A stretch of DNA of 64,000 nt. Origin: Haloarcula amylovorans. GTDB lineage: Archaea; Halobacteriota; Halobacteria; Halobacteriales; Haloarculaceae. Positions 28,069 through 34,299 of the stretch are shown piece after piece. The translations under genes were made by a program, and so were the position numbers. The stretch's first letter is position 1, and the number at the start of each line of letters is the position of its first letter. A model generated the notes under the pieces. The model made no database searches. It saw nothing but the letters and a program-made list of their open reading frames with translations, and was not told the DNA's origin. The stretch spans positions 49,726 through 113,725 of the forward strand of contig NZ_SRIF01000007.1 of the NCBI RefSeq assembly GCF_004681185.1, given 5' to 3'.

Positions 28069-29022
28069 ATGCTCGCTGATGACTTTGGTCGAGCAGTCAC
28101 GGGTGTCCGCATATCCCTTACCGACCGATGCAATTTCGATTGTGTCTACTGTCACAACGAGGGACTGGGTGACACGCGCGGGCCAATGGAACCGGCGGCC
28201 GACGAGATGTCGGCTGATGATGTCGTCCGGTTTCTTGAAGTCGCGCGAGAGTTCGATGTGCAAGCAGTGAAATTCACCGGCGGCGAGCCGATGTTGCGGC
28301 AAGATTTAGCGGAGATCATCCATCGGATACCTGACGAGATGGAGGCGTCCTTGACCACGAACGGGACATTCCTTCCGGAACGCGCAGGGTCGCTCGTCGA
28401 CGCGGGACTCGAACGCGTGAACGTCTCGCAGGACGCCCTCAGTCCAGAGGCGTTCAAAGAGATCACGCAGAGCGGAGCGTATGACCGGGTAATGGAGGGT
28501 GTCGAGGCGGCACTTTCGGCAGGGCTCGCGCCGGTCAAACTCAACATGGTCGTGTTCGAACATACGGCGGGGTACGTCCCCGAGATGGTAGATCACGTCG
28601 CGGAAAACGACGGTTTGCAGCTACAGCTGATAGAGTATATGCCAGAACTCGTCGGCAACCCGGAGTGGGCAATCGACATCGAGCGTGTCCATGACTGGCT
28701 TCGTGAGCGAGCGGATTCAGTCACCACCCGAGAGATGCACTCGCGGCGCCGCTACCAAGTAGGCGATGGTCTCGTCGAGATTGTCGATCCCGTCGGCAAC
28801 GAGACGTTCTGCCAGAACTGCCACCGGATTCGCGTCACCCACGAAGGGTACGTCAAGGGGTGTCTCAACCGCAACGACGATCTCCGGTCGATGGGGGAGA
28901 TGAACAAACCGGAAATCCGCAAGACGGTCCGCGAAACGGTCAACAATCGCGTTCCCTACTACGGCGAGTACTTCGTCCAGAACGACGCAGGCGACTGGGT
29001 GATGAACGAAAAATACGTCTGA
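28069..29022 (+). CDS. moaA: GTP 3',8-cyclase MoaA (molybdenum cofactor biosynthesis)
   Basis: Radical-SAM enzyme for the first step of molybdopterin synthesis. The 317-residue protein has the N-terminal cluster motif CNFDCVYC (Cys 22, 26, 29) and [16 protein letters not shown]. The second cluster lies in [20 protein letters not shown] near the C-terminus. The usual C-terminal GG is replaced by NEKYV, as in several archaeal MoaA proteins (recalled). It is the only cofactor gene here and lies beside the molybdenum/tungsten formate dehydrogenase, so it may supply cofactor for it. Confidence 0.93.
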
Positions 29023-29112: not shown

Positions 29113-29120
29113 GAACCAAG
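29113..29120. repeat. Target site duplication, left copy
   Basis: gaaccaag, abutting the left inverted repeat; an identical copy abuts the right end at 30758-30765. Confidence 0.85.
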
Positions 29121-29136
29121 GGCCTTGTTTAGACGC
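29121..29136 (+). repeat. Left terminal inverted repeat
   Basis: ggccttgtttagacgc, exact inverse of 30742-30757. Confidence 0.85.
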
Positions 29137-29199
29137 TGTAGAGAATGACTTACTCCAGTGAACTAACTGACCTTTGAGTCAGACCCCAATAGTATGTTG

Positions 29200-29998
29200 T
29201 CTCGTCTCTCGTCCTTTCAGATTGACTCGTAACGTTGGCGAAACGCGCTGTCTCTGGCACCTTAACCAGCGGTCAATAAGGGTGACAGCGGCTACGCTGA
29301 CTGGGCAATTGTTGTGATCCACGGTCTCCGCGAATACCTTGACCTTCCATATAGACGGCTCCTCGATGTGCTTTACGAGATACACAGGATCATCAAATCT
29401 TTAACCGAGCAAGCTGCTGGACTTCACGACCGTGTGCTCACGGAAGCAGCAGCTCAAGATGGCGGTCTGGTGAACTTTCCTACGACTCTCCGCTGATCTT
29501 CACGATACCGGAGACGTGCAGGCTATCGATGCGACCGGCTTTGACCGCCATTCGGCCAGCCCTCACTACGCAAATCGACCAAATTATACCTTCAGTTGGG
29601 TCAAGACGACAGCATTGGTAGACCGCGAAACCAGTACCGTATTGTATATTCATTGTTCGATGAAGCAACCGCACGACACTCAAGTCAGGGGTAGATACTC
29701 ACGCGGAATCTCAGTCGATTACAGACCATTGACAAAGAGTATATGACTGGGACGGTCTGCGTGAAGAGCTTCGGTGGCCGACGTTCGGCCAGTGATTAAA
29801 CACCGGAGGTTCAATCCGCTCAATATGGCGCACAACGCTCGCTATGACGATGACACAATCACCGGGATCCAGGTTGAGGCCGTCTTCTTTGCGCTCAAGC
29901 AGCGGTACGGTGATACGCTCCGGGCTCGAATATGGTTCGGACAGTTCCGAGAACTCGTTCTGAAAGCGACGGTGAGAAATGTCGAGCTTGCTCTCTAA
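29200..29998 (+). pseudogene. IS5-family transposase, frameshifted
   Basis: DDE transposase pieces in order but in several frames: LVTLAKRAVSGT near 29227, GYADWAIVVIHGLREYLDLP from 29290, a shifted KQQLKMAVW, then DVQAIDATGFDRHSASPHYA at about 29515, SWVKTTALVDRETSTVLYIH, and finally RPVIKHRRFNPLNMAHNAR and VEAVFFALKQRYGDTLRAR with RELVLKATVRNVELAL before TAA. The D of QAIDATG and the E of VEAVFF are the likely catalytic residues. At least three frameshifts mean it can no longer move by itself, although its ends are intact and might be used in trans. Confidence 0.85.
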
Positions 29999-30228
29999 CG
30001 TCGGTCAGTACAGGGGATTTACATAGGCGGCGCAAACTCTCCTGTACAGAAATATGGCATTATCTACGCACAAGATAGAGATCGATGTGTAGTGCATTGA
30101 GATGAAGTTCTCCTCGTCACCAGAAATAATAACGCGTAGAAGGCATGTCTTGCTCTTCCGTATTGAAGCGGTGATTTAATTTCCAAATATAATAGATATA
30201 ATTTATAGAATATATTAATGCATATATT

Positions 30229-30654
30229 CTATTGAGTGATTAAGACTATACTGAGACCTGCGAACGCGATTCCAGTAAACTTTGTTATCGTAATATTGTC
30301 TCCGAGAACGACTATACCGATGATAGCCGCTACGACGAAGTACATGGCACCGAGAGTAGAGACCATTGTCGTGGACCCTTGGGAGAATCCGATGTACATC
30401 GAAATGAGGCCGATTCCAGCGAATAATCCAGCCGCGCCAGCAAGCATCCCTCCTCTCATAGTAACGGCGAGCGATGCATCTGACACGACGATAAATCCAA
30501 GTGAAAGAAGACCCGCTACGAGATACGAGATTGCGGCGGCAGTCCTCGGGTCAATGGACTCCGATGCAGCGTTGCCTATGATTATCCAAATCCCCCATGA
30601 CAGCATTGTAATTAAGCCGAAGAAAATCCCTGAATCTATTTCAGTAAATTCCAT
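30229..30654 (-). CDS. EamA/DMT-superfamily transporter inside the mobile element
   Basis: A 141-residue membrane protein with about five hydrophobic helices (GIFFGLITMLSWGIWIIIGN, AAAISYLVAGLLSLGFIVV, AGLFAGIGLISMYIGF, TLGAMYFVVAAIIGIVVLG, ITKFTGIAFAGLSIVLI), one EamA half-repeat. Single-repeat members of 130-145 residues act as dimers. The Trp-rich start SWGIWIIIG and the GDNITITKFTGI segment are typical. It is AT-richer than its surroundings and lies wholly inside the inverted repeats, so it moved with the element. Substrate is unknown. Confidence 0.8.
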   Translation of the reverse strand: MEFTEIDSGIFFGLITMLSWGIWIIIGNAASESIDPRTAAAISYLVAGLLSLGFIVVSDASLAVTMRGGMLAGAAGLFAGIGLISMYIGFSQGSTTMVSTLGAMYFVVAAIIGIVVLGDNITITKFTGIAFAGLSIVLITQ

Positions 30655-30741
30655 CAGTGGGACTTCGCGTCGCTATCTGGATAAAAAGTCATCCTCATTA
30701 TGACTGGTGTTTAAATACTCGCTGCTAAAGAATGTGGTTCC

Positions 30742-30757
30742 GCGTCTAAACAAGGCC
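30742..30757 (-). repeat. Right terminal inverted repeat
   Basis: gcgtctaaacaaggcc, exact inverse of 29121-29136. Confidence 0.85.
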
Positions 30758-30765
30758 GAACCAAG
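30758..30765. repeat. Target site duplication, right copy
   Basis: gaaccaag, identical to 29113-29120. Confidence 0.85.
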
Positions 30766-30891: not shown

Positions 30892-31268
30892 TTATTTGTC
30901 CCAATAGAGCGAGCGAGCGAGCTTCTGAAGGTGGAAGTTCTCTTCGTTGGTACAACGCGGTGCTCCTAGAAACGCCCATTTGTCCGGGCCCTGCTCGCTG
31001 ATAATTTTTTGAGATCTAGTAATAACACAGGTGAGGGCAGTCTCCCATGAGACAGGGACAAGGTCACCGTTGTGTCTGACAAGCGGCGACGTGAGTCTTT
31101 CGTCGGCGTCGAGGGAATCGAACGCTCGAAGTCTCTTTTCGCAGAGTCGGCTGTTTGGATTTGCGGAGCCTGCCACGCCACGCACCTGATCCCCATCGTG
31201 TTAGCCGACTCTGAGAAAGCACAGAACGGGCAAACTGTTCCGTCTGGCCCACCCTCCTCGTTACTCAT
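30892..31268 (-). pseudogene. Truncated molybdopterin oxidoreductase (formate dehydrogenase-like)
   Basis: Begins MSNEEGGPDGTVCPFCAF at 31268, overlapping the end of the DUF1641 gene by 4 bp. It then shifts frame to RLCEKRLRAFDSLDADERLT, SPLVRHNGDLVPVSWETALT and FLGAPRCTNEENFHLQKLAR, and ends near 30892. These are the N-terminal cluster-binding and cofactor-domain segments of a second molybdopterin enzyme. The remaining ~500 residues are gone, so it is inactive. The overlap shows it was once the last gene of the formate dehydrogenase operon. Confidence 0.8.
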
Positions 31269-32001: not shown

Positions 32002-34299
32002 TCAGTCGCCTCCTTCGAGCGCCTCGGAGCGTTCGGCTGCTTCACGAGTGTTGTTCTGTTCTCGCATAGCTGTGTCGTCTGCGGGAGTAAGCCGGACCGC
32101 GGAGACCTTGAACTCGGGAGTTGCCGCCGAAGAATCGAGGCGGGTTTCGTCGGTGAGTTGGTTGACAGCGCTCTCGGCGAAGTGAATCGGTGCGAAGAGC
32201 GTCTCCGGCCCAACGCGGTCGGTCACCTGTGCGGGAACGGTGATCTCGCCCCGCCTGGATTCGACGGTCACCATGTCGCCGCTCTCGATGCCGTACGCTT
32301 CGGCCGTCGCTGGATTGACCTCGACGAAGTCGCTCGGCGTGTACTCCATGATCCCCTCCTCGCGGTGAGTCATCGTCCCCGTGTGGTACTGATAGAGGAC
32401 ACGACCGGTCGTCAGCGTAAATGGATACTCCTCGTCGGGTGTCTCGGCGGGTTCGCTGTAGCCGACTGCCTGCAGATGAGCCTTCCCGTCGTCCGTGTTG
32501 AACTCGTCTTCGTACAACCGCTCCGTCCCCGGGTGATTCTCGTCCCAACAGGGCCACTGGAGACCGCCCTCTTTCTCGACTCGATCGTGAGTCACACCAC
32601 CATACAGCGGCGTCAGCGAATTCACTTCCTCCATGATCTCGGCCGTCGAGTCGTAGTCCCAGTCTCGTCCCATCCGGTTTGCGAGGTCTTGCAGAATCTG
32701 CCAGTCGGGACGGGAGTCGCCTTTCGGTTCCATCACCTGGTTGACCTTCTGCACAGTCCGATCGGTGTTCGTGAACGTCCCCGTCTTCTCGACGAACGAA
32801 CAGGCCGGGAGGACGACGTCGGCGTACTTCGCGGTCTCAGTGACGAAGAGGTCCTGCACCACGAGGAACTCCAAGTTCTCCAGCACCTCTTCGGCGTGAT
32901 TTACCCCCGGTTCGGAGAGGGCGGAGTTCTCGCCGATGATGTACATGCCACGGAGGTCACCCTTGTCGGCCTCGAGGAACATCTGTGTCGTGTAGTACCC
33001 GTACTCCGGCGAAATGTCGCAGTCCCACGCGTCTTCGAACTTCGCTCGGACTTCGTCGTCGGCGATGCCCTGGTACCCCGGGAAATTGTCGGGAAGCGGC
33101 CCCATGTCGCCACCGCCGCCCTGAACGTTGTTCTGGCCTCGGAACGGTGAGACACCCGCGCCGGGCTTGCCGAGGTTCCCGGTCACTGCTGCGAGGTTTG
33201 CCATCGCCATGACGTTCTCCGTTCCGTGGGAATGTTCAGTCAGTCCGAGAGTCCATCCGAACACGCAGGTGTCCGCTGCTGCGATCGTCTCGGCAGCCGA
33301 TGCGATTTCTTCGGGCGGGACGCCGGTTACTTCACGGACGCGCTTGGGCGTGAACTCTCGCACCGCCTCCGAGACCGCTTCGAAGCCAGTCGTTCGTTCT
33401 TCGACGAACGACTCGTCGTAGAGGTCGTTTTCGACGATGTAGCGAGTGATTCCGTTTATCCAGACCGCATCGTAGCCCGGGTTGACACGGCTATACTGTG
33501 TCGCGTACTCGGCAATCTGGACCTCACGGGGGTCGAAGACAAGCAGGTCCGCACCGTCGCGGACGTTCTGTTTGATGCGCGTCCCAATGACGGGATGCGC
33601 CTCAGTGGTGTTCGACCCGGTAATGAGATAACAGTCGGTCGATTCGATGTCGTCCATGTTCACCGAGGCAGCGCCGTAGCCATACGTCCGGGCGAGGCCG
33701 GCGACTGTCGAGGAGTGACAGAGGCGGTTGCAGTTGTCGATGCTGTTGGTACCCAGCACCTGGCGGGCGAACTTGCCCATCAGGTAATTGTCCTCGTTGG
33801 TCGCTTTCGAAGAGGCGATGACCGACAGCGACTCGCCTCCGTGTTCGTCCCTAATCTGGGTGAATCCCTCGGCGACGCGTCTGAGGGCTTCGTCCCACGT
33901 CGCGGTCCTGAACTCCCCGCTTTTGTCGCGGACGAGCGGTGACGTCAGTCGGTCGTCTGAGTTGACGAAGTCGTACCCGAACTTGCCTTTTACGCAGGTG
34001 GAGATACCGTTGACCGGCGCGTCCTCTTCGGCCGTCGGGCGCGCAGCGAGAATCTCCTCGCCGTCGGAGTAGAGATCGAACCGACAGCCGACTGCGCAGT
34101 AGCCACAGGTGGTGTCAGCAACGTTCAGCTCTTCGAGTCGCTTGTCGCCGACCGATTGGGCTATCTCGAACAGTTTTCCTTCCGGCAGTGTTTCTGCGGC
34201 GACGCCTTCAGCGAAGTGCTCGACGCTCTGGATCGCTTGATCTTTGGCCTGTTGCATATACCCCGCTACCCCATCCATTTCATCGTTGGTCATGGCCAA
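32002..34299 (-). CDS. fdhF: Formate dehydrogenase catalytic (alpha) subunit
   Basis: Molybdenum/tungsten bis-pterin oxidoreductase, formate to CO2. The 765-residue protein has the 4Fe-4S motif CGYCAVGC (Cys 65, 68, 72) with Cys102 in STCVKGKFG. The active-site cysteine is Cys194 in NCNRLCHSSTVAGL (no selenocysteine), followed by SVNMDDIESTDCYLITGSNT. The C-terminal cofactor domain shows LTTGRVLYQYHTGTMTHRE. A His follows the active Cys, as in formate dehydrogenases. It overlaps the upstream NuoG-like gene by 10 bp. In this window it would complete oxidation of formaldehyde-derived formate. Confidence 0.93.
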   Translation of the reverse strand: MAMTNDEMDGVAGYMQQAKDQAIQSVEHFAEGVAAETLPEGKLFEIAQSVGDKRLEELNVADTTCGYCAVGCRFDLYSDGEEILAARPTAEEDAPVNGISTCVKGKFGYDFVNSDDRLTSPLVRDKSGEFRTATWDEALRRVAEGFTQIRDEHGGESLSVIASSKATNEDNYLMGKFARQVLGTNSIDNCNRLCHSSTVAGLARTYGYGAASVNMDDIESTDCYLITGSNTTEAHPVIGTRIKQNVRDGADLLVFDPREVQIAEYATQYSRVNPGYDAVWINGITRYIVENDLYDESFVEERTTGFEAVSEAVREFTPKRVREVTGVPPEEIASAAETIAAADTCVFGWTLGLTEHSHGTENVMAMANLAAVTGNLGKPGAGVSPFRGQNNVQGGGGDMGPLPDNFPGYQGIADDEVRAKFEDAWDCDISPEYGYYTTQMFLEADKGDLRGMYIIGENSALSEPGVNHAEEVLENLEFLVVQDLFVTETAKYADVVLPACSFVEKTGTFTNTDRTVQKVNQVMEPKGDSRPDWQILQDLANRMGRDWDYDSTAEIMEEVNSLTPLYGGVTHDRVEKEGGLQWPCWDENHPGTERLYEDEFNTDDGKAHLQAVGYSEPAETPDEEYPFTLTTGRVLYQYHTGTMTHREEGIMEYTPSDFVEVNPATAEAYGIESGDMVTVESRRGEITVPAQVTDRVGPETLFAPIHFAESAVNQLTDETRLDSSAATPEFKVSAVRLTPADDTAMREQNNTREAAERSEALEGGD

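Follow-up and report, generated by a model that had tools for sequence, protein, structure and literature searches.

Does the short stretch of the Haloarcula amylovorans genome in which a broken transposase gene and an open transporter gene lie between perfect inverted repeats represent a single mobile element, and if so, how did it come to hold a gene unrelated to transposition? We studied this locus within a window of 64,000 nucleotides (the whole stretch of DNA analysed here). The features of the element and of its surroundings are listed in Table 1.

Table 1. Features of the element and its neighbourhood, in window coordinates
Feature	Position	Strand	Basis or remark
MoaA-like radical SAM gene (left neighbour)	28069-29022		
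Left target-site duplication, gaaccaag	29113..29120	.	directly adjoins left inverted repeat
Left terminal inverted repeat GGCCTTGTTTAGACGC	29121..29136	+	repeat search, 16 bp
Decayed IS5/ISH1-type transposase gene	29194..29998	+	ORFs, profile match, clade comparison
Left cargo-slot border: transposase stop and conserved TAACGTCGGTCAGTACAGG	29996..30014	+	homology between different-cargo elements stops near here
Passenger gene, intact EamA/DMT transporter, 141 aa, one EamA repeat	30229..30654	-	ORF and Pfam
Candidate archaeal TATA box TTTTTATC	30680..30687	-	sequence reading only
Right subterminal region	30700..30741	.	
Right terminal inverted repeat GCGTCTAAACAAGGCC	30742..30757	-	repeat search, 16 bp
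Right target-site duplication, gaaccaag	30758..30765	.	sequence
97-aa fragment of molybdopterin oxidoreductase (right neighbour)	30892-31185		
Long formate-dehydrogenase-like gene (further right)	32002-34299		

The element measures 1637 bp from one terminal inverted repeat (TIR) to the other. The sequence and a repeat search both confirm this size, the perfect 16-bp repeats and the two gaaccaag copies described in the initial annotation, and the two arms are 100% complementary. By our own estimate (4^-24 x 2.2e6 pairs), about 1e-8 occurrences of an exact 16-bp inverted repeat that directly adjoins an 8-bp direct repeat are expected by chance in ~2 kb. The element is the sole near-full copy in the host genome. 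The formate-dehydrogenase-like gene to its right is a full-length relative of the oxidoreductase fragment beside the element.

Open reading frames, the NF033579 profile and Pfam bear out the annotation of a dead IS5-type transposase with an intact EamA gene on the other strand. Specifically, the transposase gene contains a frameshift near position 29390 and in-frame stops at 29402, 29471, 29744 and 29762; its remnants match NF033579 (transpos_IS5_2) in three pieces, and its DNA is up to 86% identical to that of relatives in the clade described below. The passenger protein matches PF00892 (EamA; E 9e-16) over residues 8-140, and the candidate TATA box, ~29 bp upstream of the EamA start, is consistent with a leaderless transcript. 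In the right subterminal region, the outermost ~10 bp next to the TIR (GTGGTTCC) resemble the right end of the clade (TGTTGCTCC), and the remainder is common to the window and to eamA relics in Natrialbaceae.

Transporter IS (tIS), which are insertion sequences with a passenger gene, form a recognised class (PMC3129680, PMC9330008), and among haloarchaea, Halorubrum lacusprofundi has been mentioned as having a passenger gene on a transposon (PMC10544981). Like a tIS, the element combines a transposase gene and ends of its own with a passenger gene that is unrelated to transposition, here the EamA (PF00892) gene inside the ends. The transposase gene, functional in a tIS, is open in sister elements and broken in the window copy, and the latter is thus a decayed member of the class. 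Elements of the ISH1 subgroup of the IS5 family are 900-1150 bp long and make 8-bp duplications (PMC6352166). The window element shares with them an IS5-type DDE transposase (NF033579, PF01609) and the 8-bp duplication, and PF01609 matches the intact transposase protein of a sister (E 6e-19). In contrast, its 1637 bp lie outside the length range of the subgroup because of the cargo slot, whereas compact sisters are 934 bp long. Sisters are annotated as ISHtu1 and ISNma1. The ends of the window element are equal to those of intact IS5-type relatives, among them sisters annotated as IS5; the outcome named as refuting the initial annotation, repeats unlike any IS5-type ends, did not occur.

Surveys of haloarchaeal genomes, in line with a check put forward in the initial annotation, found many relatives, either compact or with varied cargo. 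The left 16-mer (GGCCTTGTTTAGACGC, with 0-2 mismatches) terminates dozens of IS5-type elements. In a first search, which covered 98 relatives, four elements had 77-78% DNA identity to the transposase half of the window element, and all four were longer than usual, with other genes downstream of the transposase. Sampling was widened to 391 genomes of the class at the protein level and 392 genomes of the order at the DNA level, with a one-genome-per-species scan and a plasmid search in addition, and the transposase, both ends and the duplication were located by script for each copy. The relatives fall into a compact set of 934-bp elements, with exactly 40 bp from the transposase stop to the right end, and a cargo set of 1213-2651 bp, with 319 to 1396 bp over the same interval; the largest cargo elements (up to 2651 bp) include nested insertions. 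We observed an IS6-like transposase gene nested in the cargo slot of one element (L220, genome G281) and an apparent 136-bp inverted-repeat element nested in that of another (L092, Haloglomus irregulare). In a tree of transposase DNA, one branch with support 100 splits 22 cargo elements from 44 compact elements, the latter having been selected for their +40 right end.

An unfiltered count covered 95 distinct copies outside the clade list. The right end lies at +35 to +45 in 75 of these, 15 are without a detectable right end, and the other five comprise a clade copy (L194), two fragments and two distant copies with the closest matching end 1.4-3.3 kb off. None of these five is an intact element from outside the clade that has its own cargo slot. 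Conversely, no complete cargo-less element was found within the clade among the copies sampled: clade copies without a normal right end are mostly truncated (about 10 truncated copies were left out of cargo scoring), and two are deletion derivatives whose end lies inside the transposase region. Six members without a clean duplication (L091, L218, L221, L222, L235 and L202) may be products of recombination or decay. Viral contigs yielded no relative of the transposase. Cargo carriage is universal among the complete clade members sampled, and the cargo is highly diverse.

DNA comparison divides the contents of the slot into 13 unrelated groups, which were identified by Pfam or sequence features. 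Besides the EamA transporter of the window element, they include a chlorite dismutase family protein (Cld; 3 genomes, annotated so in one plasmid), a HAD-Nudix fusion (5 copies in the set, with further copies in a separate search), a creatininase (2 copies), Tat-signal lipoprotein-like proteins of two different kinds and another Tat-type protein. The other types are membrane proteins of 133 aa (4 copies) and 161 aa, a 54-aa membrane peptide (2 copies), a 225-aa protein of unknown type, a zinc-ribbon protein of 70 aa and a decayed fragment. Cargo genes occur in both orientations, most often on the strand that does not encode the transposase, and at least 12 changes of cargo type are needed on the transposase tree. 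In contrast to the tIS of PMC3129680 and PMC9330008, a whole clade carries cargo here, and its single slot accommodates at least 13 genes that are unrelated to one another. The initial annotation was right about the object but treated a single element; the carriage of cargo across a clade and the variety of that cargo lay beyond it. It was also right that the object is unusual, having noted that passenger genes in archaeal IS5 elements are seldom reported. In the literature searched (few subscription journals, and ISfinder outside it), no description of a cargo-bearing archaeal IS5 clade was found.

Most of the compared cargo genes are maintained by purifying selection, as indicated by dN/dS values of 0.1-0.4 for most cargo pairs overall. 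The window eamA has values of 0.15-0.43 against IS-linked copies and 0.09-0.15 against unlinked copies. Most HAD-Nudix, chlorite dismutase and creatininase pairs give ~0.1-0.2, a few very close HAD-Nudix pairs having higher, noisy values. The 133-aa cargo (0.5-0.7) is under weak constraint, as expected for a drifting passenger. There was no PADLOC match to defence genes among four cargo proteins. Separately, an identical cargo element (L090 and L091) occurs on plasmids of 316,071 and 316,107 bp (CP040680.1 and CP046867.1) of Halostella pelagica and Salinibaculum litoreum, which belong to different families in our genome set. Both records give salted brown alga as the source, and the identity may reflect either transfer of a near-identical plasmid or a mixed culture.

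In all 22 clade elements the slot occupies the same position, following the transposase stop and preceding the right end. In pairs with different cargo, homology continues for a median of 12 nt beyond the transposase stop and reaches a median of 31 bp inward from the right end; several near pairs have 77-83 bp there, and two pairs have a longer stretch. In pairs with the same cargo, homology runs across most or all of the tested length. Since the borders are shared and the interior differs, cargo has been replaced inside conserved borders. This pattern could stem from a specific exchange or simply from constraints imposed by the requirements of transposition. A serious contender, to which we give slightly less than an even chance, is that cargo arises when transposition repeatedly uses an alternative right end, supplied by the right end of another copy, and so encloses a neighbouring gene, with trimming afterwards rather than exchange in a fixed slot. 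This would fit the observation that the slot borders are the sole parts common to members with different cargo, as well as the right modules of ~75-80 bp conserved in near pairs; the near-constant left border (median 12 nt after the stop) in unrelated swaps is not predicted by such a model alone.

The initial annotation suggested that, with perfect ends, the element could still be moved by a related transposase. With its transposase gene broken, the window copy makes no transposase of its own. Movement in trans is plausible to the extent that cargo elements with an intact transposase and the same ends occur in other genera and that the host genome (G000) contains three short MITE-like elements with the same TIRs, at C8:3176-3315 (140 bp), C23:317051-317190 (140 bp) and C29:207039-207279 (241 bp), labelled L237, L238 and L243. 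One of these has a perfect and one a near-perfect duplication, and their presence indicates that such ends were used in trans in this host in the past. On the other hand, the nearest IS5 transposase in the host genome is 50% identical and has other flanking inverted repeats (TGGTGAATCGC), and no matching transposase was found in that genome at present. MITEs and mobile insertion cassettes likewise have ends that can be moved in trans, but the window element keeps most of its transposase gene, and the gene is intact in several sisters. It is possible, if rather unlikely, that the window copy itself transposed in trans after its transposase had died. The perfect ends next to a broken gene are in keeping with this, as are the short elements, which necessarily moved in trans, two of them with a duplication (one imperfect); the lack of a matching transposase in the host now speaks against it, and decay after a normal insertion accounts for the data equally well. 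We infer that a transposase of the clade acted on the window copy.

EamA-type genes are widespread in the class, with matches in 231 of 292 genomes. The best matches of the window eamA are 74-89% identical and lie in other families, and eamA genes of its own genus are only ~47% identical to it. An orthologue of the own-genus type occurs in most same-genus genomes searched and was not found in the window's genome, where the next best listed eamA match (C32:125796-126158; 38%) is pseudogene-like, with three stops. Four copies in Natrialbaceae (on plasmids of Haloterrigena turkmenica and H. salifodinae and in genomes G241 and G154) align with the window across eamA and ~100 bp upstream. In H. turkmenica and G154 the alignment extends to the final base of the right repeat; in the remaining two copies, which have a right repeat shortened by 3 bases, it stops inside that repeat. 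All four lack both a transposase and a left end, and they share one conserved locus, adjoining genes for an SRPBCC protein and a GTP-binding protein. The eamA copies with an IS right end (window and the four Natrialbaceae) form a monophyletic group (support 100/95) that is nested within a set of 31 eamA genes lacking an IS end. Most simply, eamA would have been captured once and spread by transposition, and in Natrialbaceae it would have been kept after loss of the transposase. The HAD-Nudix cargo provides a parallel, as IS-borne copies are 94-100% identical and the nearest genes without IS ends 67-80%. Alternatively, the Natrialbaceae loci may be the original donor, with the right end already present, rather than relics of an IS; ~26 bp at their outer edge agree with the consensus right end of the IS, and G154 contains part of the region that lies between transposase and eamA in the window, both of which favour relics.

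A single slot that holds many unrelated single genes recalls integron gene cassettes, but here the whole element moves. No integrase, tyrosine recombinase or attC-type site was seen on reading the elements. Integron-like core sites were sought by eye at the slot borders, and the motif was inconsistent across members. A reading that we consider improbable is that this IS5 clade serves as a dedicated platform for gene capture. On that reading, the slot, bounded by the conserved stretch just past the transposase stop and by the right module of ~75 bp, would be exchanged through a specific process, either recombination between ends or transposase activity at an alternative right end, and the small IS would be an integron-like courier that redistributes single genes among haloarchaeal families.

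Copies of a given cargo unit occupy several sites, and their 8-bp duplications differ: GATCTCGT, TTTCCGAC and AACTGTAG for HAD-Nudix, GATGTCAA and CATAATAG for chlorite dismutase, and CCTTTGTC and TGTGGAAC for the 133-aa protein. Thus, the cargo moves with the ends. The window element, too, is enclosed as a whole by its duplication. Duplications match at 8 of 8 positions in 14 distinct cargo elements, including that of the window (a 15th copy, L147, lies outside the clade and is excluded). It is therefore very improbable that the window holds an accidental composite of a compact IS beside eamA with a solitary right end beyond, never moved as a unit: solo and deleted ends do occur, and the Natrialbaceae relics have a right end without a transposase, but the duplication around the outer ends largely refutes this, as do the other cargo units recurring at different sites and the identical layout throughout the clade.

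The target preference of the cargo elements is limited to a weak T/A bias around the duplication. The insertion sites of compact sisters have a palindromic preference, roughly CTGAATA-N8/9-TATTCAG, of which the cargo clade has a weak trace; one member, L175, fits it perfectly. When the joined flanks of the window copy were compared with 60 relatives, no contiguous match was found, so that neither a site in which the transporter preceded the insertion, which would have contradicted the initial annotation, nor the empty gaaccaag site that it had proposed to look for was recovered. In a genome of the same genus (G001) the right flank is shared from ~8 bp beyond the duplication and the left flank is unshared.

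We conclude with high confidence that the window element is an ISH1-like transporter IS of the IS5 family, from a clade that swaps its cargo, and that its eamA was captured once and moved as a unit before the transposase decayed. A single host-type gene, here eamA, is carried between the transposase gene and the right end of a cut-and-paste IS. The transposase, acting originally in cis or later in trans, would recognise both 16-bp ends and move everything between them, each insertion creating an 8-bp target duplication. All the sampled complete members of the clade carry cargo in the slot, and this cargo has been replaced many times. The eamA version would have been captured once, from a presumed donor lineage, outside the window's genus; the eamA element would then have entered the window's genome as a unit, its transposase decaying since and eamA staying open.

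Haloarchaea exchange genes freely, and the carriers are poorly known. The small elements of this clade seem to ferry genes from one salt-loving archaeon to another, and the cargo seems to outlast its vehicle, as eamA lies at a fixed locus in several Natrialbaceae from which the transposase is gone. A simple IS lineage whose members always bear a single gene, not always the same one, would provide a concrete, testable vehicle for the transfer of single genes between families. It would also offer a natural series on how an IS becomes a transposon.
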